This document shows positions 28,323 through 53,631 of a stretch of 64,000 nt of DNA, in pieces; the stretch's first letter is position 1; the number at the start of each line of letters is the position of its first letter. The stretch is from Trissonchulus latispiculum (taxonomy: Eukaryota; Nematoda; Enoplea; Enoplida; Ironidae). The stretch is taken from NCBI GenBank assembly GCA_030248195.1, contig JASAND010028290.1, positions 1 through 64,000 on the forward strand. The letters are read 5' to 3'. A program made the position numbers and the translations under genes. The notes beneath the pieces are model-generated. The model ran no database searches. It saw only the letters and a list, made by a program, of their open reading frames with translations, and was not told where the DNA came from.

Positions 28323-28554
28323 GGGGCCGGTGTCGCATGCCAAAGTTTCCCCCATGCTAAGTTTTCCCCCGGGGTAATTCTAGAATGCCAAAATTTCCCC
28401 CTCTAATGTTAACCTAAAAGGGGAAATTCTAGCATGCCAAATTTTCCCCCTCTAATTCCTTCCCTTCACTTTCTTATTTTAATGATATACCTGTAATTTG
28501 GAATTTTATACCTGTAATTTGGAATTTAGGAAGATCCCAACATCCTTTTTAAAA

Positions 28555-28868
28555 TCTTCTTTTTGCGGGTTTTTTTTTTGTGGTTGTTTTGGGGGATTGG
28601 GGTTTATTTTATAGTGTTTTTTTTTGTTTTTTTTTTTTCTTTTTTATTTTTGTTTTTTTTTTTTAAAATTAAAAAAAAAAAGGGAAAATTTATTTTATAG
28701 TTTTTTTTTTTTGTGTGGGGGGGGGGTGGGGGGAAGGGGGAGAGGGGGTTCTGGTTGTTTTTTTTGTTTTTTTTATAAATAGACAAAAATTTTGTGTTTT
28801 CTTTTTTTTTTCCTTTTAAAATTATAAAATTTTTTTTTTGGTTGGTTGGGTTGGGTTGGGGGGGGGGT
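28555..28868. other. T/G/A-only low-complexity flank, possible assembly artefact
   Basis: Over about 310 bases there are only a handful of C residues, with long T, G and A homopolymers. It abuts the first base of the copy 1 LTR. Nothing like it occurs elsewhere in the window. It may be poor consensus rather than real sequence. Confidence 0.5.
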
Positions 28869-29384
28869 TGTAACCGGGTGACGTTCGCACGATTACGGTA
28901 GGCCCTCTCCGTCAGACGTGCACCTGTCAACTGGCTCCAAATTTCCCTAACTATTTGTAAACAACTTCATTAAACTAATACACTATTGTAAAAATTCACT
29001 ACCTAAGACCTACACCTGCAAACTTCTAAGCTGAACGCCCCCTAAAATACCTACGCCTGGATAGATGTGAATTTACACCTGAGCAATCCGAGACACAGAA
29101 AAAGGTTACGAAAAGGACTTAAAAGAAAGCACCCCAAAACATAGTTTAGTTGTTTGTTCTGTTATCTGTGGGTAAACTTTGTGCAGCCCGAAGCGGCTAA
29201 GGTGAATAAAGTTGTGGAGATTGAGAGTGTTTGGTAGAGAGAAGAACTTAGGGCTATAGAAGACAAGAATTGGAATTGTGTGACAATTATCAGGAACCGT
29301 AGTCTGCCGGTTATTGAGAAGTAGAATCCCTAGTCCGAAGCTGAAATTATAGGATCTTACCCGAGTGAGGTAGGTAGTGTTACA
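28869..29384 (+). repeat. 5' LTR, copy 1
   Basis: 516 bp, TGTAACCGGG...GTAGTGTTACA, bounded by the 6-bp inverted repeat TGTAAC/GTTACA. Contains AATAAA at 29205-29210, a candidate polyadenylation signal, and a donor-like AGGTAGGTAG near its 3' end. Confidence 0.92.
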
Positions 29385-29402
29385 TGGCATCCCTGGCGTA
29401 GG
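29385..29402 (+). promoter_or_regulatory. tRNA primer-binding site, copy 1
   Basis: TGGCATCCCTGGCGTAGG begins directly after the LTR with the usual TGG complementary to a tRNA CCA end. The tRNA was not identified. It is repeated after the copy 2 5' LTR at 43622. Confidence 0.65.
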
Positions 29403-29517
29403 ACCGATAATATACACCTTTGGATTATCCATTACACTTAAATTTTTTTTCTTTCTTTGCATTGTTTTAGTGGTTTCGTTTTTTTTTAACTTTTCGCTTT
29501 TTATTGAAGCGCGAAAA

Positions 29518-32500
29518 ATGTCCACCGGTAACGACCCCACTAATGACCCTAATAATCCTAGGGACCTACGCCAGCTTCAACGATCGCTGGAAAGACAGGA
29601 ACGGGTGCTCGCTGAGCAAGCAGAAAGATTGTCCCTTTTACAAGTTGTTGCACAAAATTCTGATACTTCTAACAGTTCACATACACATAACCAGCACGCC
29701 CCGGAAAAATTCAGAGGCCGTGTAGGCGAAGACTTCGCGCAATGGATAGATATGTTTGAAATTTACGCGCGAAGTCGAAACTGGTCCGATGACCAAAAAT
29801 GTGCACATTTGCCAGTTTATTTACGCGAGTTTGCGCTTGATCAATACAAAGAACTACCCACTCCTGTTCGAGACAACTACCCCCAGCTAAAACAAGCTCT
29901 GGCTAACTCTTTAGTTCCACCTGAAAACCAGAGAATAACTAGTTTGGTTTTACGCGGTAGGGTTAAAAGAGACACTGAGTCATTAGCCGACTATAGCCAG
30001 GAAATTAAAAGACTAGGACGGGCCGCTTACTCCCAATTTGACCCTAATATTCGCGACTTTCTTACAAAAGAAGCATTCATAGCAGGGTTACCCTCAGATC
30101 TCAAAGAGTACGTACTTTCACAGGATCCTGACACTTTTCAAAAGGCATTCACCTTAGCTCAAAAAAAGGACGCACAGTCCAGACTCCTAATGACCAGTGT
30201 ACATAATCCAAAACAAGACGAATTGTCGTCTAAACTTCAGGTGCACATGGTCACTGAACTAAATAACTTGAAACAGGAAATCTCCAAGCTAAGCCAACCC
30301 ACCCCAGAATCTTCCCTCCACTCCGCTGTTGAAAAATTGACTTCCAGCTTAGATCACGCATTTTCAATACAGAATACATTTTCTTCACCCTCTTTTTCCC
30401 CAGGGCCCCAAAGGTTCCCCAGAAGTGACAGACACTCGGATTATCGAAGTCGATACACCTGGACAGAAGATGGCCGTCCTGTGTGTGCATCTTGCGGATG
30501 CGTTGGCCACATCCGCATAAAGTGCCAGGGGCCACCAATCTATTCGTCTTCACAACGCCCCTACTTTTCAGGGCACCTCACCGGTCCCAATACAGAAAAC
30601 TGGCGGGGGCATTACAGCGGCCCCAGCCGACCTAAATTCCACCCAGATCAGCAAATTCGCTCTACACCACGCTATTCTAGAACCCCATCGCCTCCGCCGT
30701 CGCACGCACGTTACAGAACTCCGGAAAGGCGATTTCATGAACCTAGGGCTGATCGCCCCACCCGCCAGTCCAGACATACTTCACCCTCTCCAATGCAAAA
30801 ACGCACCAGATTTCCTACACCCCATAGTTCTTACGCCATATGCGACAGCGAGCAACACAGCCGCCAAGAATTACCCCAGCCACATTCGCTTGAAAATTGC
30901 CAGTCTGATCTCCTATGTCCAGATATGTTTAGTTATCAGGATTGTGCTGACATTCAGTATCCTGATCTACCCGAAAGTAATTCGGTGTTGGCACTACTCA
31001 ACACACACCATGAAAATTCCGACTCGTGTCGGTCTTCTAGCAGTCTAAGCTTCTCCAGAGACACTTCCCTTGAGAACGAAGAAAGTGAGGACGATGAATT
31101 CCCTATTACCTTCCTATTTGAACCCTCGCAAGACCACAATTCGCCAGGCCCACCTGAACCAATCCGCCCAACCGACAACCGAAATCAGGCCACCCATCCT
31201 TCTACAATTAAATGCCCTAAGGGTTTTCTTGTCATCTTCCTGTTCATTTTTATGTTATTTTTCACTTTCACCATTTCTTCCGCTTTTGGCTACGCCACAT
31301 ATCTCTGTGACCCACAAGTATATGGTACCATGTTTTCCCTACCTCAGGACAAATCGTGTAGCATCCCGCCTTTTGAACCTGTGCACAGAAAACGTGTACA
31401 GGTATGGGCGCCGCCTTCTTTTCCCATCACTACCGCAGTCAACGCATGCGAACTGCGCACTGACCAAGTTTGCACTTATACGAACTGGCTCGGAGTCAAT
31501 AAAATTGTTTCGCATAATTTCTCATACACACCCGTCAGCCCAGAAATCTGTAGGTTAGCTTCTTCCTATTATTTCTTTTATGGACTTGCCCTGTCGCCAT
31601 TAAGTCCTACGTTCTGGTCAACTAACTTCCCTATACGTCGCCAAAACCAGTACTGCTGTAAACAAATCTGCACGACAACTATTAACTTTAACCTATACCT
31701 GGGCACTATTAGCTCTCTCGACGGTGAGTCAGTGACGACTAATATAGCTACGGCGTCAGAATGCGTAGCCGAAAAGGGGGTTTGTCTTTCCGACCAACTT
31801 ACACTAGTTTGGGACCCTACCGTTTTCAACGTCTCCTGCCCCTTCACATTTATAAATTCTTTCACAGCTCGAATCGTACATAATCACATTCTGATTGACA
31901 GTCTTCACAGTGCCGTAGTACTGTCCCGACAAAGTTTCTTAGGCTGCTTACCAAAGCCTACTTTCACTACCGACTCTGGTATCTTGATACATATACCTCC
32001 ACAACAAAATTACACGCCGTCCACCTTTTCCCGAACGTATACAGATACAAATTATACATTTCCCGCGGGGATTACTAATCTCCATTTACTCGACACCGAA
32101 TTCTTCCGTAGTTCTTATCTTTCAATATGTTACTCGCAAATGCAATTTTTAAGCCTACTTCGCACTATCTTCTACTTGGACGCAAGTTTAGGTGTACGCA
32201 CTCTATTTCGTAGGGAGGACATAACCGCAAAATTCAATGGGGACGCTGTCTCCATTTCTCAGTGTCAAAAAGTATATCCAAAGAAAATTTACTGGAATTA
32301 TAAGTATGAAAACACATGTTACACCCACATACCTGTTCTTTTTAACGATTCTACTGAGCTATATTTCCTGGCAGCCGGAAGCCGTATCCTTACGCGATAT
32401 TCCGCAACTCAACCATGCCATCCTCACGCCAGCGCAATCACAGATACACGCCCACCGTTGTCAGTTACCCTAACTTCCAATGTTGTCGAACTTCCGTTTC

Positions 32501-35500
32501 CGCTTGTTAAGCTGCAGTTGTGGCGTCCTTACCTGTTACCCCTAACGGGTAAGAAATTTTCACGTCCCAACTTTCTACCGGTTCCACAATTCACGCTTCT
32601 TTCCGAATACCTATCTTTGCTTCATAACGCTATCCTACAACTAAGTGCATTCACTTCCACCCTCTCTACTAACCCAGTTTACCTGCAGCAGTCACTCTTT
32701 GGCAACCGTTCTATCCCTGATTCCCTGCTTACCTCCCTCAGCCTTCCCTCCACTGATCTCCTCCTCACTGGAGCCTACCAATTCTATCTTAATGTTACCA
32801 TCTGCATTCTGGCTATTTTCACAAGCTTTTACCTGGTTTCTAAACTTAGTCAATTTCTCTCATATCTTAAGCTCAGTAAATGTTCCTCCCACATTACCAG
32901 TCAAGAGCAGGAGGCAGGATCGTGCTTGCCTAAATGCCACACGCACACCTATAGGGTCTCACGACATGTACACCCAAATTTAACAGAAGTTAGTTCACAG
33001 TCATTCCGACGACAACGCCGTGCACCTACCCCACGAATAGATGAAACTGTGTTTGCTACATCCCCTTTTGTTACGCACGCATTTCCTGAACCTCCGTCCG
33101 ACCGGAATAGCCTCCACAGCAAAAGCAGTGAGACTCAGCACGCTTACAACTGTGCTCCGCTCGCGAACAAATCCTCGAAACCGCTAATTTCAACTATTTA
33201 TGCTAAAATCAACAACACAGTCACGCGAGCACTTATTGACACTGGCGCCACTCTTTCCTTGATAACCAAGAAAACGGCAATGAACCTTCCTCTAAGACCT
33301 CACACAACCGCTGGCCCCACCTCCATCACCGGCCATAGCCTGCTCATACTAGGCCTAGTGTTTACAACTCTTACCCTAGGCAAACTTAACGTTCACCATT
33401 CGTTCCATGTTACGTCTGAACTTCCATATGATTGCATCCTTGGAACTGACCTTCTTTCCAAATTAGGTCCTTTTGTTATCAATTTTCAAAAGCGAACAGT
33501 CACTATCTCAGGACAAATTCTCCCTTTTGAAAGTGAATTACCCTTGCGATATCATTTTAAACATACACCCTCCGTCCACTCTGTCTCATCGTTTACGATA
33601 CCCGCTCGCACCGAAGGCAATGTGCTGTGTGCATTATCAGAACGTCGGAAACAAGACATGCTTTTTGAACCATCACAGACTTTCTCAAAAGAAACACCCT
33701 TATTGGCAGCCAGAGCTATATTATCAGCAAATGAACACTTTGTTGTGCTTCGGTTGCTCAATCCCACCCTAACTCCTATCAAAGTTTATAAAAACACAAC
33801 ATTCGGACATCTTCACAACCTAGCCCCCACCTTCCCCATTTTAGCTTTTTCACCACAAACTCCTCCCACAAAGTCTGGTTCAGCTCAAATTAATCTCTCA
33901 GATACTTCTCTCTCGGACACCCAAACACAAACACTACGCCAGCTTCTTACATCATACGACGACATTTTCGCCAGCCACAAATTTGATTTAGGCCACACCT
34001 CTGTTTCCACTCACTCTATTGATGTCGGCAACGCTTCTCCAATTAAGCAGCGTCCCTACAGAGTCCCTATCAAACAACGAGAAGTTGTAAATGAACACAT
34101 AAAGAACATGCACTCTCAGGGCATCATACGACCAAGCTCCTCCCCATGGGCCTCGCCTATCGTACTTGTTAGAAAACAGGATGGCTCCGATCGTTTTTGT
34201 GTAGACTACCGTAAGTTAAATAGCGTCACCAAAAAAGATTCCTGGCCGCTACCTAGGTGCGACGAAATTTTAGATTCTTTGGGCTCTGCAAAGTTTTTTA
34301 GTTCACTCGACCTATGCAGTGGCTACTGGCAAATACCCCTTGATGAGGAGTCAAAGGCAAAAACGGCGTTCACTTCGTTTGCGGGTCTTTGGGAGTTCAA
34401 TGTACTCCCTTTCGGTCTTTGCAACGCGCCAGCTACATTTCAACGAACTATGGAGTTTATTCTTTTGGGGTTGCATTGGAAAAATTGTCTTTGTTACATT
34501 GATGATATAATCGTATTTTCTCCTACATTTGAGCAACACGTAGACGACTTACGCCAGGTATTCGACCGTTTCCGAACATATAGCTTAAAGCTCAAGCCAT
34601 CAAAATGCCATTTCTGCAGAAAGGTAGTATCATTTTTAGGACACCTGATTTCCGCAGAAGGAATACAGCCTGACCCCGCTAAAATTTCGCCTGTTGCTCA
34701 CTACCCTGTCCCCAAATCAGTACCAGACATCCGTCGCTTCTTAGGATTCGCTTCATACTACCGTCGTTTTATTAGAAACTTCTCTCGGATTGCATCCCCC
34801 CTTACAGCACTACTCAAAAAAGAATCATCATTTTCATGGACACCTGAGTGCCAAGAAGCTTTCCGTACCCTACGTGAACGCTTACTCTCGCCACCCATCC
34901 TTAGTTACCCAAACTTCAACAAACAATTTACACTACACACTGACGCAAGTGGAATCGCTCTGGGGGCGGTTCTCAGTCAATACCACGAAAACAAAGAACA
35001 TGTTATCGCATATGCAAGTCGGACTCTGTCAAGACACGAGTGTAATTATGCGGCTACAGAAAAAGAGGCTCTTGCAGTCGTCTGGGCTGTTACGTATTTT
35101 CGCTGTTACCTCTACGGCAGACATTTCACTCTTTACACGGATTGCGCCTCACTTAAATCCCTCCTGCACTCGAAACACCCTTCATCACGACTGGCCCGTT
35201 GGGCTCTCAAATTACAAGATTACGATATCGAAATTCTTCACCGCTCAGGCAAGAAACACGCTAATGCTGACGCTCTTAGCCGTATAGAGCTCCCGCGAGT
35301 TCTTACCTTAATTGACACCCCGAAAGACATTTCCACGCTTCAACAAAACGACACCTATCTCGGCCCTATTTTCCAATACTTACAACAGGGAAAAATCTGC
35401 ACTGACCCATCCACCGCGATAGCTGTTAAGGCTAAAGCTACTTTCTACAGCCTCAATGACAACTTGTTATATTTTACCCAAAACTGCAAGCGCCCTCTTA

Positions 35501-36696
35501 TAGCCATACCTGAATGCTTAATCGCTGAAGTCATGGAATCTTACCATGATTGTCCGTTTTCGGGCCACTTAGGTTTCGATAAAACATATCAGAAACTTCG
35601 CCGACGTTTTCACTGGCCTTCTCTCCGGTCGGACACAAAAGCCTATTGCCGTAGCTGTGTGCTCTGTGCCAAAGTTAAAGATCCACCTCATTTAACACGA
35701 GCACCTTTGGCCCCCATTCCTATTGTTGGAACCCCATTTTCTCGGGTCACAATGGATATAGCGGGCCCTCTTCCTGTTACACCACAGGGAAATGCTTATC
35801 TATTAGTATTCATTGATAGTTTCACCAAATGGTGCGAAGCTTTTCCGCTCTCCAACACCAAGTCACTCACTATCGCCAAAATTTTTGTGAACGAAATCGT
35901 ATGTCGTTTTGCAGCTCCTTATGAGCTACTGTCGGACTGTGCTAGCAACTTTACGACCGAAATCATAAAAGACATCTGCACTCTTGTTAATACTAGGAAA
36001 CTGCAGTCCGTCCCCTATCGACCGCAAACGCAAGGTCAGGTAGAGCGACAGAACAAAACGTTAGTAACTATGTTAAAAAATTACTGTATCTCTAACCAAC
36101 AATCATGGGACGATTACCTACCCAAAATATTGTTTGCGTATCGCTCCGCAACACATGAAACTACTAAAGAAAGCCCATTTTACCTACTCTTCGGCAGAGA
36201 TCCACAGATACCTTTTTACACCAGTATTACGACCATGGAATCACCCTACTCTGAGCATGATGATTACCGCCGCGATCTCACCCAAGCATTATCCTCCGCA
36301 TGGTCCACAGCGATGGAACAAATATTAAAAGCTCAAAATAAGCAAAAGTTTTATTATGATCGGACCATTCATTTACCCCACTACCAGGTCGGCGATAGGG
36401 TATATGTCTACATTCCAACCACACACCGCGGCCAGTCGCCGAAGCTCTCCACCTTCTGGCGCGGACCATTCCGAATATGCCAAATTAACGGGCGTAACCT
36501 GCACGTTACACCCATTGATTCCCCCACGGAGAAAGAACGAGTCGTTCATGTCGACCAGGTTAAAAAGTGTTATGATCTCCACCTACCCTATTTACGTGCT
36601 CCACCTTCCGCACCTAACTCTGCTCAAACAAATACCAGTTCTGGACTCCCTGAGGCACATCGTCAACATTACAATCTTAGAACTCGGCGTCTATGA
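29518..36696 (+). CDS. Gag - envelope-like - Pol polyprotein (2392 aa), copy 1
   Basis: Start chosen at the ATG of MSTGNDPTND, because the sequence upstream differs between copies at a T run. Residues 1-320: coiled, charged Gag. Zinc knuckle C323-X2-C326-X4-H331-X4-C336. 340-560: Pro/Arg/Ser-rich. TM1 about 570-592. 593-1088: ectodomain with about 16 Cys, several N-X-S/T sites and a basic HRKR at 623-626. TM2 about 1089-1112. Basic RRQRR at 1164-1168. Protease DTGA 1241-1244. RT YIDD 1660-1663. RNase H Asp 1809. Integrase HHCC zinc region, then D2080, D2140, E2176 (D-D-35-E), and a GPF-type C-terminal module. Catalytic motifs are intact. Placing a two-TM envelope-like loop between Gag and protease in a single frame is unusual: Gag and Pol would both face the cytosol. 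The identity of the ectodomain is not recognised; envelope-like is inferred from topology. Confidence 0.88.
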   Translation: MSTGNDPTNDPNNPRDLRQLQRSLERQERVLAEQAERLSLLQVVAQNSDTSNSSHTHNQHAPEKFRGRVGEDFAQWIDMFEIYARSRNWSDDQKCAHLPVYLREFALDQYKELPTPVRDNYPQLKQALANSLVPPENQRITSLVLRGRVKRDTESLADYSQEIKRLGRAAYSQFDPNIRDFLTKEAFIAGLPSDLKEYVLSQDPDTFQKAFTLAQKKDAQSRLLMTSVHNPKQDELSSKLQVHMVTELNNLKQEISKLSQPTPESSLHSAVEKLTSSLDHAFSIQNTFSSPSFSPGPQRFPRSDRHSDYRSRYTWTEDGRPVCASCGCVGHIRIKCQGPPIYSSSQRPYFSGHLTGPNTENWRGHYSGPSRPKFHPDQQIRSTPRYSRTPSPPPSHARYRTPERRFHEPRADRPTRQSRHTSPSPMQKRTRFPTPHSSYAICDSEQHSRQELPQPHSLENCQSDLLCPDMFSYQDCADIQYPDLPESNSVLALLNTHHENSDSCRSSSSLSFSRDTSLENEESEDDEFPITFLFEPSQDHNSPGPPEPIRPTDNRNQATHPSTIKCPKGFLVIFLFIFMLFFTFTISSAFGYATYLCDPQVYGTMFSLPQDKSCSIPPFEPVHRKRVQVWAPPSFPITTAVNACELRTDQVCTYTNWLGVNKIVSHNFSYTPVSPEICRLASSYYFFYGLALSPLSPTFWSTNFPIRRQNQYCCKQICTTTINFNLYLGTISSLDGESVTTNIATASECVAEKGVCLSDQLTLVWDPTVFNVSCPFTFINSFTARIVHNHILIDSLHSAVVLSRQSFLGCLPKPTFTTDSGILIHIPPQQNYTPSTFSRTYTDTNYTFPAGITNLHLLDTEFFRSSYLSICYSQMQFLSLLRTIFYLDASLGVRTLFRREDITAKFNGDAVSISQCQKVYPKKIYWNYKYENTCYTHIPVLFNDSTELYFLAAGSRILTRYSATQPCHPHASAITDTRPPLSVTLTSNVVELPFPLVKLQLWRPYLLPLTGKKFSRPNFLPVPQFTLLSEYLSLLHNAILQLSAFTSTLSTNPVYLQQSLFGNRSIPDSLLTSLSLPSTDLLLTGAYQFYLNVTICILAIFTSFYLVSKLSQFLSYLKLSKCSSHITSQEQEAGSCLPKCHTHTYRVSRHVHPNLTEVSSQSFRRQRRAPTPRIDETVFATSPFVTHAFPEPPSDRNSLHSKSSETQHAYNCAPLANKSSKPLISTIYAKINNTVTRALIDTGATLSLITKKTAMNLPLRPHTTAGPTSITGHSLLILGLVFTTLTLGKLNVHHSFHVTSELPYDCILGTDLLSKLGPFVINFQKRTVTISGQILPFESELPLRYHFKHTPSVHSVSSFTIPARTEGNVLCALSERRKQDMLFEPSQTFSKETPLLAARAILSANEHFVVLRLLNPTLTPIKVYKNTTFGHLHNLAPTFPILAFSPQTPPTKSGSAQINLSDTSLSDTQTQTLRQLLTSYDDIFASHKFDLGHTSVSTHSIDVGNASPIKQRPYRVPIKQREVVNEHIKNMHSQGIIRPSSSPWASPIVLVRKQDGSDRFCVDYRKLNSVTKKDSWPLPRCDEILDSLGSAKFFSSLDLCSGYWQIPLDEESKAKTAFTSFAGLWEFNVLPFGLCNAPATFQRTMEFILLGLHWKNCLCYIDDIIVFSPTFEQHVDDLRQVFDRFRTYSLKLKPSKCHFCRKVVSFLGHLISAEGIQPDPAKISPVAHYPVPKSVPDIRRFLGFASYYRRFIRNFSRIASPLTALLKKESSFSWTPECQEAFRTLRERLLSPPILSYPNFNKQFTLHTDASGIALGAVLSQYHENKEHVIAYASRTLSRHECNYAATEKEALAVVWAVTYFRCYLYGRHFTLYTDCASLKSLLHSKHPSSRLARWALKLQDYDIEILHRSGKKHANADALSRIELPRVLTLIDTPKDISTLQQNDTYLGPIFQYLQQGKICTDPSTAIAVKAKATFYSLNDNLLYFTQNCKRPLIAIPECLIAEVMESYHDCPFSGHLGFDKTYQKLRRRFHWPSLRSDTKAYCRSCVLCAKVKDPPHLTRAPLAPIPIVGTPFSRVTMDIAGPLPVTPQGNAYLLVFIDSFTKWCEAFPLSNTKSLTIAKIFVNEIVCRFAAPYELLSDCASNFTTEIIKDICTLVNTRKLQSVPYRPQTQGQVERQNKTLVTMLKNYCISNQQSWDDYLPKILFAYRSATHETTKESPFYLLFGRDPQIPFYTSITTMESPYSEHDDYRRDLTQALSSAWSTAMEQILKAQNKQKFYYDRTIHLPHYQVGDRVYVYIPTTHRGQSPKLSTFWRGPFRICQINGRNLHVTPIDSPTEKERVVHVDQVKKCYDLHLPYLRAPPSAPNSAQTNTSSGLPEAHRQHYNLRTRRL

Positions 36697-36816
36697 CTAG
36701 TCTGTCTTTTAATTTTTTTCTTTCCATTCATTAATTATTTATCCTATACTTTTGGATTATTTGTTTATCTTGTTATATTTTCTTTTTTCGACGTTTTAGG
36801 AGTCCGTTTACGTGTT
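36697..36816 (+). promoter_or_regulatory. ORF1-ORF2 spacer with splice-acceptor-like end
   Basis: A 120-bp T-rich spacer ends TTTTTTCGACGTTTTAG|GAG at 36798-36799, like the host TTTTAG acceptors, 17 bp before the ORF2 ATG. A similar TTGTTTTAG lies at 29462-29470 before Gag. Suggests ORF2 is made from a spliced RNA. Confidence 0.5.
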
Positions 36817-38712
36817 ATGGCCCAGTCAGCCAGAGGGAAAACACGTCCGCCCGATTCCTCCCGCCAGAGTCCACCAAATAAGCTGTCAAAAACTGTGCTA
36901 AAATTTGATTACATTTCTGGTTCAGGACATGTTTTGTCCGCTTACCATCGTTTTCCCTCCATTCCAGTGGGTGATAAAAATTTCACGACACCTAAGCAAC
37001 TGTTTGAGTATATACACCTGTTTCAGCTGGGACTCACCAGCGAAGCTGACTACGTTCTCAACAACCCAATGTCCGGGTCTGACGTACACCAGTATTTTAA
37101 TTCCATTCGCCACGCCTATGTTGACCGAAACGGGCCGTGGATTTTCTTTCGGGATTCCGTTTGGCTTGCGATTTGGCAATTGGTAGCCAAATGCAGCAGT
37201 CTGTGCCATAGAATCCTTACACAACCAGACACTCACTTTGTTCTCCTGGGAAACCATCCCTATTGGGCTTGTGGGTTAGATAAGGTGCCGGAGGATACAC
37301 CCTCAGGATTCCCTGGGTCAAATCGCTATGGTCGCCTTTTAGACCAGGCGGCTGAGCTTGTTTCCCAAGAGCGCAGGCCTGCCTGTAATCTCCACGAACT
37401 CTGCCTCCGTCACGTGTTGGATTCGCCACCCAAAACTCTACTCGTCGTTGGAGATGCCGATCTCAAATATCTGCGCGCTGTAGAATGCGGATCAGTAATT
37501 TGCCGGGAACAGTTCCAGTTTCACCATCTTCCTGCCATGCTTCGGGGCATCGATGTCAGCCAGTACACCTACCTGATTGTCCACAGTGGCATCAGCCAAC
37601 TTCGCGACTCCCCTGCTGACTGGGAGAAGGACATTTTGTCGGTTTCCGATTACCTGACGCAGCTGCCTATTTCTATTTACGTCTCAGGGCCGTTTCTACA
37701 CCGGAATTCGCCTTTTCCGGCCGAAACTGTTGCCGCACGCGACACGTTTCTCCGGAACAAATGCCAGCAGTTACACCTAAACTACCTCTCGACGTCGGCT
37801 CGATTTCACCCTGATCCAGAAAGTCTTCACGTTTGCCACTTTTATGACTCGCCCCCTGAGCCCTGCTACCATCTTTCCCCTGACGGAACCTCTCGTCTGT
37901 TCCAATGTTGGGAGCTGGAGAAGCCACGGTTCGCCTTGGTGCAACCTTATTTCAGCGACCAACCTTATGCTCAGCCTCGTCCGGCTACTGGTCGGCCCTC
38001 TCGGAATGAATCCCGACCTGCTAACCCATCGCCGCGTGTCCGTTCTCCGGCTCTCAGCAAAACCCGTGGGTACACCTGCCGCAGTCGCACACGTTCCGCG
38101 CGGTCGTCCAATTCACATTCGTATTCCCCGGAGGGACATATCTCTTTACTAGACGACGAAACGGCCTCCACAAGATCATCATCGGCTGGTACGCCTGTCA
38201 GCAGCCTAACCCCGGAAAAACCTCCATTCCAAACCCCTCCTCCTACAACCAGCCCTGTTACGCCACAATCTACTGCTCCTGCTGCAACCACTGCTGTGGT
38301 GGATCCGGAGCAAACGCCTCTTCCCAAACAAAATTCGAGGAATACCGTTGCCGCGGAATCATCTGGCACGGTTACCACCTGCAATGTCGCACAAAAATCC
38401 GCAACAACAAATTCGCACTCGCACATGGACGAAACCCAGCCAACACAGACCTACTCGGCACTACATCCCCTGATGCCAACGTCAACCGAACCTCCCACCC
38501 AACCCTCCGCGTCCAATATGTCCACCTCAGGCTGGTCTCCTACCCCTGCCCAGTCACACAGCCTCCCGGGCTCCACGAATATAGCGGACGATCTGGGAAT
38601 ACCTCATCTCTGCAAACTCCACATGTTTGTGGGTGTATACAAATTCCCGACAGGGCAAAAAGTCCTAGTCGTGCCAAGAGAACTCCAACTTGAGGGTATA
38701 CGCTTTGTATAA
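36817..38712 (+). CDS. NADAR-like + SGNH-like accessory protein (631 aa), copy 1
   Basis: Second retroelement ORF. Residues 30-180 follow the NADAR (YbiA, DUF1768) pattern: GHVLSAYHRFPSIPVGDKNF, then W108..R112..K125, then L..PYWACGLD around 148-155 and PGSNRYGRLL 166-175. The NADAR family acts on N-glycosidic bonds of ADP-ribosyl or riboflavin-pathway substrates. The position normally held by the active-site Glu after the F-x-x-x motif aligns to K60. Residues 207-365 resemble an SGNH hydrolase: VVGDADLKYL for the GDS block (Ser is Ala214), LIVHSGISQL for block III, YHLSPDGTSRL for the final His block, with Pro in place of the usual Asp three residues earlier. Residues 370-600 are Pro/Ser/Thr-rich and likely disordered; a short ordered end follows. 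Probably binding rather than catalytic modules. Domain calls are by eye. Confidence 0.75.
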   Translation: MAQSARGKTRPPDSSRQSPPNKLSKTVLKFDYISGSGHVLSAYHRFPSIPVGDKNFTTPKQLFEYIHLFQLGLTSEADYVLNNPMSGSDVHQYFNSIRHAYVDRNGPWIFFRDSVWLAIWQLVAKCSSLCHRILTQPDTHFVLLGNHPYWACGLDKVPEDTPSGFPGSNRYGRLLDQAAELVSQERRPACNLHELCLRHVLDSPPKTLLVVGDADLKYLRAVECGSVICREQFQFHHLPAMLRGIDVSQYTYLIVHSGISQLRDSPADWEKDILSVSDYLTQLPISIYVSGPFLHRNSPFPAETVAARDTFLRNKCQQLHLNYLSTSARFHPDPESLHVCHFYDSPPEPCYHLSPDGTSRLFQCWELEKPRFALVQPYFSDQPYAQPRPATGRPSRNESRPANPSPRVRSPALSKTRGYTCRSRTRSARSSNSHSYSPEGHISLLDDETASTRSSSAGTPVSSLTPEKPPFQTPPPTTSPVTPQSTAPAATTAVVDPEQTPLPKQNSRNTVAAESSGTVTTCNVAQKSATTNSHSHMDETQPTQTYSALHPLMPTSTEPPTQPSASNMSTSGWSPTPAQSHSLPGSTNIADDLGIPHLCKLHMFVGVYKFPTGQKVLVVPRELQLEGIRFV

Positions 38713-38865
38713 TCATCGAAGCACTTAGCCGGCCAAGAAAAGGTTAATTTTTCACAATTTTACAAACGATTCTTTCTCTTGTTTGCCACGCGTATATACA
38801 TTCTTGTTTTGTTTCTTTTTTTTCAATTCTTTCAATAACACAGAACGGGGACGTTCGCATTTTTC

Positions 38866-39393: not shown

Positions 39394-39492
39394 TGACAAA
39401 CAATATTATGAGGACAACTGTGTCTTTGAACAGAAATAAATTCGAGGAAATTCTGCCAGATATCTGGAACTCAGTACAACCATTTGTATTAC

Positions 39493-43105: not shown

Positions 43106-43621
43106 TGTAACCGGGTGACGTTCGCACGATTACGGTAGGCCCTCTCCGTCAGACGTGCACCTGTCAACTGGCTCCAAATTTCCCTAACTATTTGTAAACA
43201 ACTTCATTAAACTAATACACTATTGTAAAAATTCACTACCTAAGACCTACACCTGCAAACTTCTAAGCTGAACGCCCCCTAAAATACCTACGCCTGGATA
43301 GATGTGAATTTACACCTGAGCAATCCGAGACACAGAAAAAGGTTACGAAAAGGACTTAAAAGAAAGCACCCCAAAACATAGTTTAGTTGTTTGTTCTGTT
43401 ATCTGTGGGTAAACTTTGTGCAGCCCGAAGCGGCTAAGGTGAATAAAGTTGTGGAGATTGAGAGTGTTTGGTAGAGAGAAGAACTTAGGGCTATAGAAGA
43501 CAAGAATTGGAATTGTGTGACAATTATCAGGAACCGTAGTCTGCCGGTTATTGAGAAGTAGAATCCCTAGTCCGAAGCTGAAATTATAGGATCTTACCCG
43601 AGTGAGGTAGGTAGTGTTACA
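43106..43621 (+). repeat. 5' LTR, copy 2
   Basis: 516 bp, TGTAAC...GTTACA, apparently identical to the copy 1 LTRs. The primer-binding site TGGCATCCCTGG follows at 43622. Confidence 0.92.
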
Positions 43622-43755
43622 TGGCATCCCTGGCGTAGGACCGATAATATACACCTTTGGATTATCCATTACACTTAAATTTTTTTTTCTTTCTTTGCAT
43701 TGTTTTAGTGGTTTCGTTTTTTTTTAACTTTTCGCTTTTTATTGAAGCGCGAAAA

Positions 43756-46700
43756 ATGTCCACCGGTAACGACCCCACTAATGACCCTAATAATCCTAGG
43801 GACCTACGCCAGCTTCAACGATCGCTGGAAAGACAGGAACGGGTGCTCGCTGAGCAAGCAGAAAGATTGTCCCTTTTACAAGTTGTTGCACAAAATTCTG
43901 ATACTTCTAACAGTTCACATACACATAACCAGCACGCCCCGGAAAAATTCAGAGGCCGTGTAGGCGAAGACTTCGCGCAATGGATAGATATGTTTGAAAT
44001 TTACGCGCGAAGTCGAAACTGGTCCGATGACCAAAAATGTGCACATTTGCCAGTTTATTTACGCGAGTTTGCGCTTGATCAATACAAAGAACTACCCACT
44101 CCTGTTCGAGACAACTACCCCCAGCTAAAACAAGCTCTGGCTAACTCTTTAGTTCCACCTGAAAACCAGAGAATAACTAGTTTGGTTTTACGCGGTAGGG
44201 TTAAAAGAGACACTGAGTCATTAGCCGACTATAGCCAGGAAATTAAAAGACTAGGACGGGCCGCTTACTCCCAATTTGACCCTAATATTCGCGACTTTCT
44301 TACAAAAGAAGCATTCATAGCAGGGTTACCCTCAGATCTCAAAGAGTACGTACTTTCACAGGATCCTGACACTTTTCAAAAGGCATTCACCTTAGCTCAA
44401 AAAAAGGACGCACAGTCCAGACTCCTAATGACCAGTGTACATAATCCAAAACAAGACGAATTGTCGTCTAAACTTCAGGTGCACATGGTCACTGAACTAA
44501 ATAACTTGAAACAGGAAATCTCCAAGCTAAGCCAACCCACCCCAGAATCTTCCCTCCACTCCGCTGTTGAAAAATTGACTTCCAGCTTAGATCACGCATT
44601 TTCAATACAGAATACATTTTCTTCACCCTCTTTTTCCCCAGGGCCCCAAAGGTTCCCCAGAAGTGACAGACACTCGGATTATCGAAGTCGATACACCTGG
44701 ACAGAAGATGGCCGTCCTGTGTGTGCATCTTGCGGATGCGTTGGCCACATCCGCATAAAGTGCCAGGGGCCACCAATCTATTCGTCTTCACAACGCCCCT
44801 ACTTTTCAGGGCACCTCACCGGTCCCAATACAGAAAACTGGCGGGGGCATTACAGCGGCCCCAGCCGACCTAAATTCCACCCAGATCAGCAAATTCGCTC
44901 TACACCACGCTATTCTAGAACCCCATCGCCTCCGCCGTCGCACGCACGTTACAGAACTCCGGAAAGGCGATTTCATGAACCTAGGGCTGATCGCCCCACC
45001 CGCCAGTCCAGACATACTTCACCCTCTCCAATGCAAAAACGCACCAGATTTCCTACACCCCATAGTTCTTACGCCATATGCGACAGCGAGCAACACAGCC
45101 GCCAAGAATTACCCCAGCCACATTCGCTTGAAAATTGCCAGTCTGATCTCCTATGTCCAGATATGTTTAGTTATCAGGATTGTGCTGACATTCAGTATCC
45201 TGATCTACCCGAAAGTAATTCGGTGTTGGCACTACTCAACACACACCATGAAAATTCCGACTCGTGTCGGTCTTCTAGCAGTCTAAGCTTCTCCAGAGAC
45301 ACTTCCCTTGAGAACGAAGAAAGTGAGGACGATGAATTCCCTATTACCTTCCTATTTGAACCCTCGCAAGACCACAATTCGCCAGGCCCACCTGAACCAA
45401 TCCGCCCAACCGACAACCGAAATCAGGCCACCCATCCTTCTACAATTAAATGCCCTAAGGGTTTTCTTGTCATCTTCCTGTTCATTTTTATGTTATTTTT
45501 CACTTTCACCATTTCTTCCGCTTTTGGCTACGCCACATATCTCTGTGACCCACAAGTATATGGTACCATGTTTTCCCTACCTCAGGACAAATCGTGTAGC
45601 ATCCCGCCTTTTGAACCTGTGCACAGAAAACGTGTACAGGTATGGGCGCCGCCTTCTTTTCCCATCACTACCGCAGTCAACGCATGCGAACTGCGCACTG
45701 ACCAAGTTTGCACTTATACGAACTGGCTCGGAGTCAATAAAATTGTTTCGCATAATTTCTCATACACACCCGTCAGCCCAGAAATCTGTAGGTTAGCTTC
45801 TTCCTATTATTTCTTTTATGGACTTGCCCTGTCGCCATTAAGTCCTACGTTCTGGTCAACTAACTTCCCTATACGTCGCCAAAACCAGTACTGCTGTAAA
45901 CAAATCTGCACGACAACTATTAACTTTAACCTATACCTGGGCACTATTAGCTCTCTCGACGGTGAGTCAGTGACGACTAATATAGCTACGGCGTCAGAAT
46001 GCGTAGCCGAAAAGGGGTTTGTCTTTCCGACCAACTTACACTAGTTTGGGACCCTACCGTTTTCAACGTCTCCTGCCCCTTCACATTTATAAATTCTTTC
46101 ACAGCTCGAATCGTACATAATCACATTCTGATTGACAGTCTTCACAGTGCCGTAGTACTGTCCCGACAAAGTTTCTTAGGCTGCTTACCAAAGCCTACTT
46201 TCACTACCGACTCTGGTATCTTGATACATATACCTCCACAACAAAATTACACGCCGTCCACCTTTTCCCGAACGTATACAGATACAAATTATACATTTCC
46301 CGCGGGGATTACTAATCTCCATTTACTCGACACCGAATTCTTCCGTAGTTCTTATCTTTCAATATGTTACTCGCAAATGCAATTTTTAAGCCTACTTCGC
46401 ACTATCTTCTACTTGGACGCAAGTTTAGGTGTACGCACTCTATTTCGTAGGGAGGACATAACCGCAAAATTCAATGGGGACGCTGTCTCCATTTCTCAGT
46501 GTCAAAAAGTATATCCAAAGAAAATTTACTGGAATTATAAGTATGAAAACACATGTTACACCCACATACCTGTTCTTTTTAACGATTCTACTGAGCTATA
46601 TTTCCTGGCAGCCGGAAGCCGTATCCTTACGCGATATTCCGCAACTCAACCATGCCATCCTCACGCCAGCGCAATCACAGATACACGCCCACCGTTGTCA

Positions 46701-49700
46701 GTTACCCTAACTTCCAATGTTGTCGAACTTCCGTTTCCGCTTGTTAAGCTGCAGTTGTGGCGTCCTTACCTGTTACCCCTAACGGGTAAGAAATTTTCAC
46801 GTCCCAACTTTCTACCGGTTCCACAATTCACGCTTCTTTCCGAATACCTATCTTTGCTTCATAACGCTATCCTACAACTAAGTGCATTCACTTCCACCCT
46901 CTCTACTAACCCAGTTTACCTGCAGCAGTCACTCTTTGGCAACCGTTCTATCCCTGATTCCCTGCTTACCTCCCTCAGCCTTCCCTCCACTGATCTCCTC
47001 CTCACTGGAGCCTACCAATTCTATCTTAATGTTACCATCTGCATTCTGGCTATTTTCACAAGCTTTTACCTGGTTTCTAAACTTAGTCAATTTCTCTCAT
47101 ATCTTAAGCTCAGTAAATGTTCCTCCCACATTACCAGTCAAGAGCAGGAGGCAGGATCGTGCTTGCCTAAATGCCACACGCACACCTATAGGGTCTCACG
47201 ACATGTACACCCAAATTTAACAGAAGTTAGTTCACAGTCATTCCGACGACAACGCCGTGCACCTACCCCACGAATAGATGAAACTGTGTTTGCTACATCC
47301 CCTTTTGTTACGCACGCATTTCCTGAACCTCCGTCCGACCGGAATAGCCTCCACAGCAAAAGCAGTGAGACTCAGCACGCTTACAACTGTGCTCCGCTCG
47401 CGAACAAATCCTCGAAACCGCTAATTTCAACTATTTATGCTAAAATCAACAACACAGTCACGCGAGCACTTATTGACACTGGCGCCACTCTTTCCTTGAT
47501 AACCAAGAAAACGGCAATGAACCTTCCTCTAAGACCTCACACAACCGCTGGCCCCACCTCCATCACCGGCCATAGCCTGCTCATACTAGGCCTAGTGTTT
47601 ACAACTCTTACCCTAGGCAAACTTAACGTTCACCATTCGTTCCATGTTACGTCTGAACTTCCATATGATTGCATCCTTGGAACTGACCTTCTTTCCAAAT
47701 TAGGTCCTTTTGTTATCAATTTTCAAAAGCGAACAGTCACTATCTCAGGACAAATTCTCCCTTTTGAAAGTGAATTACCCTTGCGATATCATTTTAAACA
47801 TACACCCTCCGTCCACTCTGTCTCATCGTTTACGATACCCGCTCGCACCGAAGGCAATGTGCTGTGTGCATTATCAGAACGTCGGAAACAAGACATGCTT
47901 TTTGAACCATCACAGACTTTCTCAAAAGAAACACCCTTATTGGCAGCCAGAGCTATATTATCAGCAAATGAACACTTTGTTGTGCTTCGGTTGCTCAATC
48001 CCACCCTAACTCCTATCAAAGTTTATAAAAACACAACATTCGGACATCTTCACAACCTAGCCCCCACCTTCCCCATTTTAGCTTTTTCACCACAAACTCC
48101 TCCCACAAAGTCTGGTTCAGCTCAAATTAATCTCTCAGATACTTCTCTCTCGGACACCCAAACACAAACACTACGCCAGCTTCTTACATCATACGACGAC
48201 ATTTTCGCCAGCCACAAATTTGATTTAGGCCACACCTCTGTTTCCACTCACTCTATTGATGTCGGCAACGCTTCTCCAATTAAGCAGCGTCCCTACAGAG
48301 TCCCTATCAAACAACGAGAAGTTGTAAATGAACACATAAAGAACATGCACTCTCAGGGCATCATACGACCAAGCTCCTCCCCATGGGCCTCGCCTATCGT
48401 ACTTGTTAGAAAACAGGATGGCTCCGATCGTTTTTGTGTAGACTACCGTAAGTTAAATAGCGTCACCAAAAAAGATTCCTGGCCGCTACCTAGGTGCGAC
48501 GAAATTTTAGATTCTTTGGGCTCTGCAAAGTTTTTTAGTTCACTCGACCTATGCAGTGGCTACTGGCAAATACCCCTTGATGAGGAGTCAAAGGCAAAAA
48601 CGGCGTTCACTTCGTTTGCGGGTCTTTGGGAGTTCAATGTACTCCCTTTCGGTCTTTGCAACGCGCCAGCTACATTTCAACGAACTATGGAGTTTATTCT
48701 TTTGGGGTTGCATTGGAAAAATTGTCTTTGTTACATTGATGATATAATCGTATTTTCTCCTACATTTGAGCAACACGTAGACGACTTACGCCAGGTATTC
48801 GACCGTTTCCGAACATATAGCTTAAAGCTCAAGCCATCAAAATGCCATTTCTGCAGAAAGGTAGTATCATTTTTAGGACACCTGATTTCCGCAGAAGGAA
48901 TACAGCCTGACCCCGCTAAAATTTCGCCTGTTGCTCACTACCCTGTCCCCAAATCAGTACCAGACATCCGTCGCTTCTTAGGATTCGCTTCATACTACCG
49001 TCGTTTTATTAGAAACTTCTCTCGGATTGCATCCCCCCTTACAGCACTACTCAAAAAAGAATCATCATTTTCATGGACACCTGAGTGCCAAGAAGCTTTC
49101 CGTACCCTACGTGAACGCTTACTCTCGCCACCCATCCTTAGTTACCCAAACTTCAACAAACAATTTACACTACACACTGACGCAAGTGGAATCGCTCTGG
49201 GGGCGGTTCTCAGTCAATACCACGAAAACAAAGAACATGTTATCGCATATGCAAGTCGGACTCTGTCAAGACACGAGTGTAATTATGCGGCTACAGAAAA
49301 AAGAGGCTCTTGCAGTCGTCTGGGCTGTTACGTATTTTCGCTGTTACCTCTACGGCAGACATTTCACTCTTTACACGGATTGCGCCTCACTTAAATCCCT
49401 CCTGCACTCGAAACACCCTTCATCACGACTGGCCCGTTGGGCTCTCAAATTACAAGATTACGATATCGAAATTCTTCACCGCTCAGGCAAGAAACACGCT
49501 AATGCTGACGCTCTTAGCCGTATAGAGCTCCCGCGAGTTCTTACCTTAATTGACACCCCGAAAGACATTTCCACGCTTCAACAAAACGACACCTATCTCG
49601 GCCCTATTTTCCAATACTTACAACAGGGAAAAATCTGCACTGACCCATCCACCGCGATAGCTGTTAAGGCTAAAGCTACTTTCTACAGCCTCAATGACAA

Positions 49701-50934
49701 CTTGTTATATTTTACCCAAAACTGCAAGCGCCCTCTTATAGCCATACCTGAATGCTTAATCGCTGAAGTCATGGAATCTTACCATGATTGTCCGTTTTCG
49801 GGCCACTTAGGTTTCGATAAAACATATCAGAAACTTCGCCGACGTTTTCACTGGCCTTCTCTCCGGTCGGACACAAAAGCCTATTGCCGTAGCTGTGTGC
49901 TCTGTGCCAAAGTTAAAGATCCACCTCATTTAACACGAGCACCTTTGGCCCCCATTCCTATTGTTGGAACCCCATTTTCTCGGGTCACAATGGATATAGC
50001 GGGCCCTCTTCCTGTTACACCACAGGGAAATGCTTATCTATTAGTATTCATTGATAGTTTCACCAAATGGTGCGAAGCTTTTCCGCTCTCCAACACCAAG
50101 TCACTCACTATCGCCAAAATTTTTGTGAACGAAATCGTATGTCGTTTTGCAGCTCCTTATGAGCTACTGTCGGACTGTGCTAGCAACTTTACGACCGAAA
50201 TCATAAAAGACATCTGCACTCTTGTTAATACTAGGAAACTGCAGTCCGTCCCCTATCGACCGCAAACGCAAGGTCAGGTAGAGCGACAGAACAAAACGTT
50301 AGTAACTATGTTAAAAAATTACTGTATCTCTAACCAACAATCATGGGACGATTACCTACCCAAAATATTGTTTGCGTATCGCTCCGCAACACATGAAACT
50401 ACTAAAGAAAGCCCATTTTACCTACTCTTCGGCAGAGATCCACAGATACCTTTTTACACCAGTATTACGACCATGGAATCACCCTACTCTGAGCATGATG
50501 ATTACCGCCGCGATCTCACCCAAGCATTATCCTCCGCATGGTCCACAGCGATGGAACAAATATTAAAAGCTCAAAATAAGCAAAAGTTTTATTATGATCG
50601 GACCATTCATTTACCCCACTACCAGGTCGGCGATAGGGTATATGTCTACATTCCAACCACACACCGCGGCCAGTCGCCGAAGCTCTCCACCTTCTGGCGC
50701 GGACCATTCCGAATATGCCAAATTAACGGGCGTAACCTGCACGTTACACCCATTGATTCCCCCACGGAGAAAGAACGAGTCGTTCATGTCGACCAGGTTA
50801 AAAAGTGTTATGATCTCCACCTACCCTATTTACGTGCTCCACCTTCCGCACCTAACTCTGCTCAAACAAATACCAGTTCTGGACTCCCTGAGGCACATCG
50901 TCAACATTACAATCTTAGAACTCGGCGTCTATGA
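43756..50934 (+). pseudogene. Gag - envelope-like - Pol polyprotein, copy 2, two frameshifts
   Basis: Same product as the ORF at 29518 but broken as written. A G run at 46014-46017 has four bases where copy 1 has five; this shifts frame inside the ectodomain and stops at 46044. An A run at 49297-49302 has six where copy 1 has five; it shifts frame in RNase H, with a stop at 49394. Downstream integrase remains open to 50934. Protease, RT and integrase motifs are unchanged. The breaks could be real or sequencing error; only homopolymers are affected. Confidence 0.85.
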
Positions 50935-51054
50935 CTAGTCTGTCTTTTAATTTTTTTCTTTCCATTCATTAATTATTTATCCTATACTTTTGGATTATTT
51001 GTTTATCTTGTTATATTTTCTTTTTTCGACGTTTTAGGAGTCCGTTTACGTGTT

Positions 51055-52951
51055 ATGGCCCAGTCAGCCAGAGGGAAAACACGTCCGCCCGATTCCTCCC
51101 GCCAGAGTCCACCAAATAAGCTGTCAAAAACTGTGCTAAAATTTGATTACATTTCTGGTTCAGGACATGTTTTGTCCGCTTACCATCGTTTTCCCTCCAT
51201 TCCAGTGGGTGATAAAAATTTCACGACACCTAAGCAACTGTTTGAGTATATACACCTGTTTCAGCTGGGACTCACCAGCGAAGCTGACTACGTTCTCAAC
51301 AACCCAATGTCCGGGTCTGACGTACACCAGTATTTTAATTCCATTCGCCACGCCTATGTTGACCGAAACGGGCCGTGGATTTTCTTTCGGGATTCCGTTT
51401 GGCTTGCGATTTGGCAATTGGTAGCCAAATGCAGCAGTCTGTGCCATAGAATCCTTACACAACCAGACACTCACTTTGTTCTCCTGGGAAACCATCCCTA
51501 TTGGGCTTGTGGGTTAGATAAGGTGCCGGAGGATACACCCTCAGGATTCCCTGGGTCAAATCGCTATGGTCGCCTTTTAGACCAGGCGGCTGAGCTTGTT
51601 TCCCAAGAGCGCAGGCCTGCCTGTAATCTCCACGAACTCTGCCTCCGTCACGTGTTGGATTCGCCACCCAAAACTCTACTCGTCGTTGGAGATGCCGATC
51701 TCAAATATCTGCGCGCTGTAGAATGCGGATCAGTAATTTGCCGGGAACAGTTCCAGTTTCACCATCTTCCTGCCATGCTTCGGGGCATCGATGTCAGCCA
51801 GTACACCTACCTGATTGTCCACAGTGGCATCAGCCAACTTCGCGACTCCCCTGCTGACTGGGAGAAGGACATTTTGTCGGTTTCCGATTACCTGACGCAG
51901 CTGCCTATTTCTATTTACGTCTCAGGGCCGTTTCTACACCGGAATTCGCCTTTTCCGGCCGAAACTGTTGCCGCACGCGACACGTTTCTCCGGAACAAAT
52001 GCCAGCAGTTACACCTAAACTACCTCTCGACGTCGGCTCGATTTCACCCTGATCCAGAAAGTCTTCACGTTTGCCACTTTTATGACTCGCCCCCTGAGCC
52101 CTGCTACCATCTTTCCCCTGACGGAACCTCTCGTCTGTTCCAATGTTGGGAGCTGGAGGAAGCCACGGTTCGCCTTGGTGCAACCTTATTTCAGCGACCA
52201 ACCTTATGCTCAGCCTCGTCCGGCTACTGGTCGGCCCTCTCGGAATGAATCCCGACCTGCTAACCCATCGCCGCGTGTCCGTTCTCCGGCTCTCAGCAAA
52301 ACCCGTGGGTACACCTGCCGCAGTCGCACACGTTCCGCGCGGTCGTCCAATTCACATTCGTATTCCCCGGAGGGACATATCTCTTTACTAGACGACGAAA
52401 CGGCCTCCACAAGATCATCATCGGCTGGTACGCCTGTCAGCAGCCTAACCCCGGAAAAACCTCCATTCCAAACCCCTCCTCCTACAACCAGCCCTGTTAC
52501 GCCACAATCTACTGCTCCTGCTGCAACCACTGCTGTGGTGGATCCGGAGCAAACGCCTCTTCCCAAACAAAAATTCGAGGAATACCGTTGCCGCGGAATC
52601 ATCTGGCACGGTTACCACCTGCAATGTCGCACAAAAATCCGAAACAACAAATTCGCACTCGCACATGGACGAAACCCAGCCAACACAGACCTACTCGGCA
52701 CTACATCCCCTGATGCCAACGTCAACCGAACCTCCCACCCAACCCTCCGCGTCCAATATGTCCACCTCAGGCTGGTCTCCTACCCCTGCCCAGTCACACA
52801 GCCTCCCGGGCTCCACGAATATTGCGGACGATCTGGGAATACCTCATCTCTGCAAACTCCACATGTTTGTGGGTGTATACAAATTCCCGACAGGGCAAAA
52901 GTCCTAGTCGTGCCAAGAGAACTCCAACTTGAGGGTATACGCTTTGTATAA
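51055..52951 (+). pseudogene. NADAR-like + SGNH-like protein, copy 2, frameshifted tail
   Basis: NADAR-like and SGNH-like parts read intact from the ATG at 51055. An extra G near 52158 (GGAGG against GGAG) moves the frame and stops at 52248. Two more length changes, an A run at 52569-52573 (five against four) and one at 52897-52900 (four against five), shift the Pro/Ser tail out of and back into frame. Substitutions are rare, e.g. near 52642 and 52823. Confidence 0.8.
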
Positions 52952-53115
52952 TCATCGAAGCACTTAGCCGGCCAAGAAAAGGTTAATTTTTCACAATTTT
53001 ACAAACGATTCTTTCTCTTGTTTGCCACGCGTATATACATTCTTGTTTTGTTTCTTTTTTTCAATTCTTTCAATAACACAGAACGGGGACGTTCGCATTT
53101 TTCAAAGGGTGGTGA

Positions 53116-53631
53116 TGTAACCGGGTGACGTTCGCACGATTACGGTAGGCCCTCTCCGTCAGACGTGCACCTGTCAACTGGCTCCAAATTTCCCTAACTA
53201 TTTGTAAACAACTTCATTAAACTAATACACTATTGTAAAAATTCACTACCTAAGACCTACACCTGCAAACTTCTAAGCTGAACGCCCCCTAAAATACCTA
53301 CGCCTGGATAGATGTGAATTTACACCTGAGCAATCCGAGACACAGAAAAAGGTTACGAAAAGGACTTAAAAGAAAGCACCCCAAAACATAGTTTAGTTGT
53401 TTGTTCTGTTATCTGTGGGTAAACTTTGTGCAGCCCGAAGCGGCTAAGGTGAATAAAGTTGTGGAGATTGAGAGTATTTGGTAGAGAGAAGAACTTAGGG
53501 CTATAGAAGACAAGACTTGGAATTGTGTGACAATTATCAGGAACCGTAGTCTGCCGGTTATTGAGAAGTAGAATCCCTAGTCCGAAGCTGAAATTATAGG
53601 ATCTTACCCGAGTGAGGTAGGTAGTGTTACA
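53116..53631 (+). repeat. 3' LTR, copy 2
   Basis: 516 bp. Two substitutions relative to the other three LTRs (GAGAGTATTTGG near 53475; CAAGACTTGG near 53517). Two changes in 516 bp between partner LTRs indicate a young insertion. Confidence 0.9.

Follow-up and report, generated by a model that had tools for sequence, protein, structure and literature searches.

A long terminal repeat (LTR) retrotransposon of the nematode Trissonchulus latispiculum carries, between Gag and Pol and in the same reading frame as both, a module that we assign from its sequence to the class III type viral fusion glycoproteins, of the glycoprotein B (gB) and chuvirus kind. The window analysed here is a stretch of 64,000 nucleotides (assembly GCA_030248195.1, contig JASAND010028290.1, positions 1 to 64,000), which holds two copies of the element, at 28869-39393 and 43106-53631. 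Open reading frame 1 (ORF1) of copy 1 runs without a stop through Gag, a zinc knuckle, a hydrophobic segment, a Cys-rich ectodomain, a second hydrophobic segment, protease (PR), reverse transcriptase (RT), RNase H and integrase. We consider it probable, if well short of certain, that the element makes one Gag-Env-Pol polyprotein, which would be cut in a flavivirus-like manner by signal peptidase in the lumen of the endoplasmic reticulum (ER) and by the element's own protease in the cytosol.

The glycoprotein module

The initial annotation, made from the letters of the window, had proposed an envelope-like module embedded between Gag and Pol in one frame, and profile searches bear this out. The region 31075-32997 matches the Pfam family Monjiviricetes_fusion (PF24664) with an E value of 4.8e-10 and 38.5 bits, above the cut-off of 27, and weakly matches the herpesvirus gB model (E 0.004). 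At E<=0.01, PF24664 matches all 22 modules that we aligned (best 8.4e-21), while the gB model matches 15 and the bornavirus G model 13 of them. The PF24664-matching part is the middle of the ectodomain, about 100-190 residues long in the seven modules inspected singly. Across the host genome, 68 PF24664 matches were listed, all 68 over the cut-off; in 14 control genomes there was none.

When the 22-module profile was compared with the PDB, 34 distinct sequences were found at E<=1, all of them gB (best 4.2e-7), seven of them at E<=0.001. Three of these matches bear the names GP110 or BALF4, which we take to be Epstein-Barr virus gB. A second stretch of the profile, individually insignificant, matches the membrane-proximal and transmembrane end of gB, with the order conserved. 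The PF24664 matches, the exclusively gB matches in the PDB and the result in the host genome against the control genomes are the grounds for the class III assignment. PHROGs and a single-sequence PDB search with the module gave nothing useful.

Residues 593-1088 contain 16 Cys and 5 sequons. The description of the ectodomain as Cys-rich and N-glycosylatable holds at the level of the family: 16 Cys are invariant across the 22 aligned modules (626 columns, the window's module included), and the sequons summed over the 22 relatives are in excess (125 against 72.2 expected), whereas the window's own count, 5 against 4.2 expected, is hardly beyond chance. The first hydrophobic segment has a Kyte-Doolittle mean of 2.53, which exceeds 2.26, the 95th percentile of the highest value per shuffle when ORF1 is shuffled 1000 times. 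The second, with a mean of 1.98, falls below that percentile (median shuffle maximum 1.79) and is weak taken alone; a third, weaker stretch (1.64, residues 1274-1292) lies inside the protease. Hydrophobic segments stand at both ends of the aligned modules (the frame of locus L048 stops inside the second), and canonical members have a Gly-rich stretch ahead of the C-terminal anchor. It is conservation, in the form of the 16 invariant Cys, that places the module beyond chance.

We rejected a non-envelope reading, under which the module would reflect chance hydrophobicity, extend Gag, form some other domain unrelated to envelopes, or stem from a single fusion event or an assembly artefact, and regard it as extremely improbable. 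The second hydrophobic segment, being alone within shuffle chance, speaks for it. It is refuted by the match to a curated family, the 71 merged places with a module in the host genome (below), the 22 matching modules out of 22 and the negative controls. Neither a Gag extension nor a dUTPase domain, the outcomes set beforehand as refuting an envelope, appeared at the module in the Pfam scan of ORF1.

The element and its family in the host genome

By its LTRs and the order of its Pfam domains, the element is a young Ty3/gypsy-type LTR retrotransposon. Its pol matches follow the order PR, RVT_1, RT_RNaseH, H2C2, rve, which together with an LTR pair is that of Ty3/gypsy; the best listed relatives from an RT-RNase H search bear mostly uninformative names. 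The LTR pair of copy 1 is identical (0 differences in 518 aligned columns, 2 of those columns outside the LTR). The features of the element, all on the + strand, are as follows.

28869..29384, +, 5' LTR of copy 1: TG...CA, 516 bp (BLAST self-comparison)
29385..29402, +, primer-binding-site-like TGG..., directly after the LTR (sequence inspection)
29445..29470, +, T-rich tract and AG, acceptor-like: rank 2 of 366 AG sites by an ad hoc pyrimidine score; first ATG downstream at 29518
29518..36696, +, ORF1, 2392 aa: Gag, Env module, PR, RT, RNase H, integrase
29518..31074, +, Gag part: PF03732-like, E 1.6e-4, 22.3 bits, below the cut-off of 24.1
30484-30525, +, CCHC knuckle within Gag, residues 323-336
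31222..31278, +, first hydrophobic segment, residues 569-587, read as an internal signal peptide: signal-peptidase-like motif behind it
31279..32781, +, Cys-rich ectodomain, assigned as a class III type fusion glycoprotein
32122..32427, +, PF24664 Monjiviricetes_fusion match, profile positions 336-430 of 653 (Pfam scan)
32782..32838, +, second hydrophobic segment, residues 1089-1107, read as a C-terminal membrane anchor
33202..33459, +, aspartic protease: gag-asp_proteas PF13975, E 8.1e-10; DTGA at 33238 (residue 1241)
34198..36693, +, RT (part), RNase H, integrase (H2C2, rve) (Pfam scan)
36780..36799, +, T-rich tract and AG, acceptor-like, before ORF2: rank 3 of 366, tied with 29509; first ATG downstream at 36817
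36817..38712, +, ORF2, 631 aa
38878..39393, +, 3' LTR of copy 1
43106..53631, +, copy 2 of the element, frame-broken as assembled: 4-bp target-site duplication ATAT

The residue positions given in the initial annotation for the knuckle, DTGA and the two segments agree with these to within a few residues. Its statement that both copies keep the module is true of the DNA, the copies being 99.9% identical (4 mismatches and 7 gaps over 10,530 columns of the BLAST self-comparison), but not of the frame, since copy 2 as assembled is frame-broken, with one of the breaks inside the module. Because length differences outnumber substitutions between the copies, these differences may be sequencing or assembly errors. 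Copy 1, unlike copy 2, has no target-site duplication. G/T-rich low-complexity DNA (28540-28868) adjoins its 5' LTR, where an assembly fault is possible. In 2-kb windows over 30001-54000 the GC skew reaches -0.35, with C over G on the coding strand of both copies, unlike the flanks. Rfam and tRNA scans of the window gave no match.

We searched the host genome (733.8 Mb, 21732 contigs) for the module. At least 77 matches, or 71 places after neighbours were merged, range from 100% to about 25% identity; the counts are lower bounds, as only the best-scoring candidates were evaluated. The 48 loci that were fetched represent 44 distinct places (L005-L007 lie within L009-L011, and L008 is the second piece of copy 2). 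The order Gag, transmembrane segment, ectodomain, transmembrane segment, PR, whose recurrence in genomes had been suggested as a check, recurs in the host: at 15 of the 44 fetched places a single open frame holds the zinc knuckle, the two segments and the protease motif, with knuckle and PR 811-916 aa apart. Together with the 71 places, this upholds the claim that the arrangement is not a one-off fusion. The longest open frame around a module has 3183 aa, and at 21 of the 71 places the frame is at least 1900 aa long. An RT search of the same genome listed 104 matches, of which 48 were compared with the module list. Nineteen of these 48 had frames of at least 2300 aa on contigs without a listed module match, and in all four of the 19 for which the piece upstream of RT was fetched, the module was present in an open frame.

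Wider searches found no relative of Env. Env alone against 5.8 billion proteins gave 6532 candidates, none at E<=0.01, in a search that needs exact short words; a 15-row alignment of Env, PR and the start of RT gave two matches, both through PR/RT and none through Env. The Env profile was absent from the best 120 of 6584 RT relatives (positive control, 48 of 48 locus frames), and viral contigs scanned twice with Env contained no relative. These searches rely on exact short words and a length limit, so absence outside the host genome is not established by them.

The family is under purifying selection, with a ratio of nonsynonymous to synonymous substitution rates (dN/dS) of 0.084-0.213 in all 15 unsaturated pairs, 10 of them from one group of five copies and none including the window's copy. 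The ratio was computed only for pairs that share many four-residue words; another 17 pairs proved saturated. In trees of 20 sequences, Env and PR/RT-N agree on 11 of 17 splits, nine of them well supported in both (Mantel r 0.62, a value that none of 2000 permutations reached). For Gag and Env, with 11 sequences, four of eight splits agree (r 0.52, reached by 3 of 2000 permutations). These comparisons fit an old association of Env with Pol; some swapping may have occurred along the way, most readily in the window's own subfamily.

ORF2 belongs to the element family as well. Its 74 matches in the host genome merge into 57 places. A module precedes it on the same strand, at a distance of 1.1-5.7 kb, in 17 cases, and at 16 kb in an 18th. 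On contigs C10248, C14947 and C17472, module and ORF2 matches give equal open-frame lengths (2634, 3183 and 2711 aa, respectively), so that the polyprotein most likely extends to ORF2 there. The window's ORF2 has no Pfam match, an NCBIfam scan for ORF2 gave no relevant match, its profile found nothing in the PDB at E<0.8, and an AlphaFold model made without an alignment had a mean predicted local distance difference test score (pLDDT) of 38.8. Among seven ORF2 sequences scanned there were three GDSL_2 matches (E 2.5e-5, 0.13 and 0.14) and, in a distant relative other than the one with the best GDSL_2 match, one NADAR match (E 2e-4), all below the cut-off. The catalytic Ser, Asn and Asp of SGNH enzymes are apparently not conserved in the window's ORF2 on reading the alignment. 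NADAR domains are reported in Gypsy Pol of Ectocarpus (PMC12477816), and a GDSL/SGNH-type ORF follows pol in Vesta1 of bdelloid rotifers (PMC5408684).

Elsewhere in the window, a TGF-beta/BMP-like host gene on the + strand has an exon at 24202-25299 (PF00019, E 6.7e-13) and, near 27342-27515, what is probably its last exon; copy 1 begins about 1.35 kb further on. The gene by itself marks the host as most likely an animal. Between these exons, a set of nested inverted repeats occupies 26141-26808 together with a C-rich direct repeat of 74 nt. Just 3' of the 3' LTR of copy 1, a large imperfect, foldback-transposon-like palindrome (39482-40184) has arms of 129 nt, 96% complementary and spaced 445 nt apart.

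The proposed polyprotein and alternative routes of expression

The flavivirus polyprotein runs from capsid through an internal signal to the envelope protein. Because Gag precedes and Pol follows the module in frame, an ER-threaded polyprotein is the simplest reading of ORF1. It builds on what we regard as established by sequence comparison: the open frame, membership of the glycoprotein family, conservation of the signal-like and anchor segments, purifying selection in the family and co-inheritance with Pol. Gag would be synthesised in the cytosol, and the first hydrophobic segment, as an internal signal sequence, would direct the nascent polypeptide to the translocon of the ER. Cleavage by signal peptidase behind this segment would give the ectodomain a free N-terminus on the lumenal side, the second segment would stop transfer and anchor Env, and Pol would be made in the cytosol. 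On the cytosolic side, the element's protease would release Pol and also Gag, which might or might not keep the signal segment to tether it to the membrane. The remaining Env would span the membrane once and could serve the entry of particles or transfer from cell to cell. That ORF1 is translated as a single chain and cut in both ways is a prediction of this model, as are the topology, fusion activity and incorporation into particles; the model retains the earlier argument that an even number of membrane passes returns Pol to the cytosol.

The first segment is more likely a cleaved internal signal peptide than a lasting membrane pass. In each aligned module, small residues come after the first hydrophobic stretch, just ahead of the first conserved Cys. 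All 22 modules have a signal-peptidase-like -3/-1 motif ahead of this Cys, compared with 142 of 336 control windows taken before other Cys; the 22 do not amount to as many independent cases, because the motif was defined after the sequences had been inspected and the sequences are related. Given this motif, we read the first segment as a cleaved signal and mature Env as a single-pass class III protein. The two-transmembrane topology first suggested thus stands in that hydrophobic segments flank the ectodomain, but probably not in the mature protein.

Besides the post hoc definition of the motif, several observations weigh against the proposed polyprotein. Gag, Env and Pol would be made in equal amounts, which is unusual for a particle-forming element. 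At 29 of the 44 fetched places, at least one of the four marks is missing from the single frame, through decay, fetch edges, or frame shifts and stops between Env and PR. Supported conflicts separate the Env tree from those of PR/RT-N (two, both with the group that holds the window's long branch) and of Gag (four, all with the group including the window). The AlphaFold model of the Env module, made from the single sequence without an alignment, has a pLDDT of 35.5. To these may be added two acceptor-like splice sites, one of them the highest-ranking of the 366, inside Gag at 30403, and the other, of rank 5, inside the ectodomain at 31438.

Both sites bear on the possibility, which we hold to be real but unlikely, that splicing separates the products. 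The module would then supply an exon to an mRNA for Env or Env-Pol, or be removed from the gag-pol mRNA, or both, and no Gag-Env-Pol chain would be made. A single donor-like site, found with a narrow list of donor patterns, marks the 3' end of the LTR, and tracts that are acceptor-like by an ad hoc score stand just ahead of the ORF1 and ORF2 starts; the post-pol ORF of Cer1 of C. elegans is expressed from a spliced mRNA (PMC10309623). However, the first ATG downstream of the site in Gag is out of frame, and the best acceptor-like sites from knuckle to module and from module to PR rank 16th and 24th of 366. There is no conserved in-frame Met before the first segment, and 3 of 23 frames have no Met at all between knuckle and module. 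Moreover, the frame is open across both junctions in 15 of 44 copies, which splicing would not require.

Other ways of separating the products were considered. As PR lies in another frame than Env in several copies, we inspected six Env/PR overlaps for a programmed frameshift; slippery-like heptamers were present in one and absent from five, and decay is the more likely explanation. No 2A-like ribosome-skipping motif occurs in 23 frames.

The module might also be translated within the polyprotein without still being a fusogen, serving an intracellular element as a membrane anchor or as a receptor-blocking ectodomain. We think this rather improbable. The divergence of the window's subfamily (23-28% identity to 19 of the 21 other aligned modules) would suit it, as would the absence of the window's copy from every selection estimate and the weaker second segment of L001, L005, L007 and L012 (1.7-2.2, against 2.3-3.4 in more distant members). 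Yet all 22 modules, the window's included, keep the 16 Cys and match the fusion family, and the sole pair from near the window's subfamily, L007 and L012, has a dN/dS of 0.21, more constraint than a mere anchor needs.

The Gag-Env-Pol polyprotein thus stays our preferred reading for the window's element. Extended to the lineage, it would mean that Gag, Env, Pol and, in some members, the post-pol protein are threaded through the ER membrane as one chain, with host signal peptidase and the element's protease cutting from opposite sides, an arrangement stable until Env is only ~25% identical within one genome. On this wider proposition our judgement is evenly balanced.

Comparison with known elements and viral systems

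Retroviruses and errantiviruses keep env separate from gag-pol and splice it, and splicing sets both the amount of Env and its route to the ER. A class III fusogen fused into Gag-Pol breaks this rule and would be an unusual way to make an envelope. Class III envelopes in LTR elements are themselves already known: besides Anakin (below), type III fusion glycoproteins are mentioned for both gypsy and BEL elements (PMC13172572). Errantiviruses and other env-carrying gypsy elements (Metaviridae) resemble the present element in combining a Ty3/gypsy pol with a viral fusion glycoprotein. They differ in that GAG, POL and ENV are described as tandem ORFs (PMC13172572), with env a separate ORF after pol, whereas the Env of the present element is flanked by Gag and PR in a single frame.

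Anakin of mosquitoes, a BEL/Pao element with a captured chuvirus glycoprotein (PMC7642597), is alike as an LTR element with a chuvirus-type glycoprotein but belongs to the Pao lineage; no BEL/Pao model is among the Pfam pol matches of our element (gag-asp_proteas, RT_RNaseH_2, H2C2). The envelopes of Roo, Tas and Cer-7 lie downstream of the polyprotein, according to the same paper. As far as its extract goes, a survey of Jingchuvirales glycoproteins did not clearly find capture by Gypsy (PMC10084718). Cer1 and Vesta1 share an extra ORF after pol, and ORF2 is set beside both by description only; the extracts of their papers (PMC10309623, PMC5408684) describe no Env between Gag and Pol. With gB and the Monjiviricetes (chuvirus and bornavirus) glycoproteins, the module shares central profile similarity, conserved Cys, a signal-like segment and a C-terminal anchor. 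It differs from them in standing inside a retroelement polyprotein, and the profile similarity covers only about 100-190 residues.

Among the titles and abstract openings listed by our full-text searches, whose coverage did not extend to the key paper of Chary & Hayashi 2025, none described a Gag-Env-Pol order in one frame, and we provisionally regard the in-frame position between Gag and Pol as new. The findings point to capture of a negative-strand-virus-type glycoprotein by a Ty3/gypsy element, followed by co-inheritance with Pol over a long divergence.

The proposed polyprotein would resemble the flavivirus type in its cytosolic shell protein, its internal signal, and the action of signal peptidase and an element-encoded protease, in place of the viral one, on opposite sides of the membrane, as we infer here. 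Genome, enzymes and glycoprotein are unrelated, so the likeness is an analogy only. The family allows a clean test of whether a reverse-transcribing element can run on an ER-threaded polyprotein; if it does, this would be a flavivirus-like strategy of gene expression in such an element.
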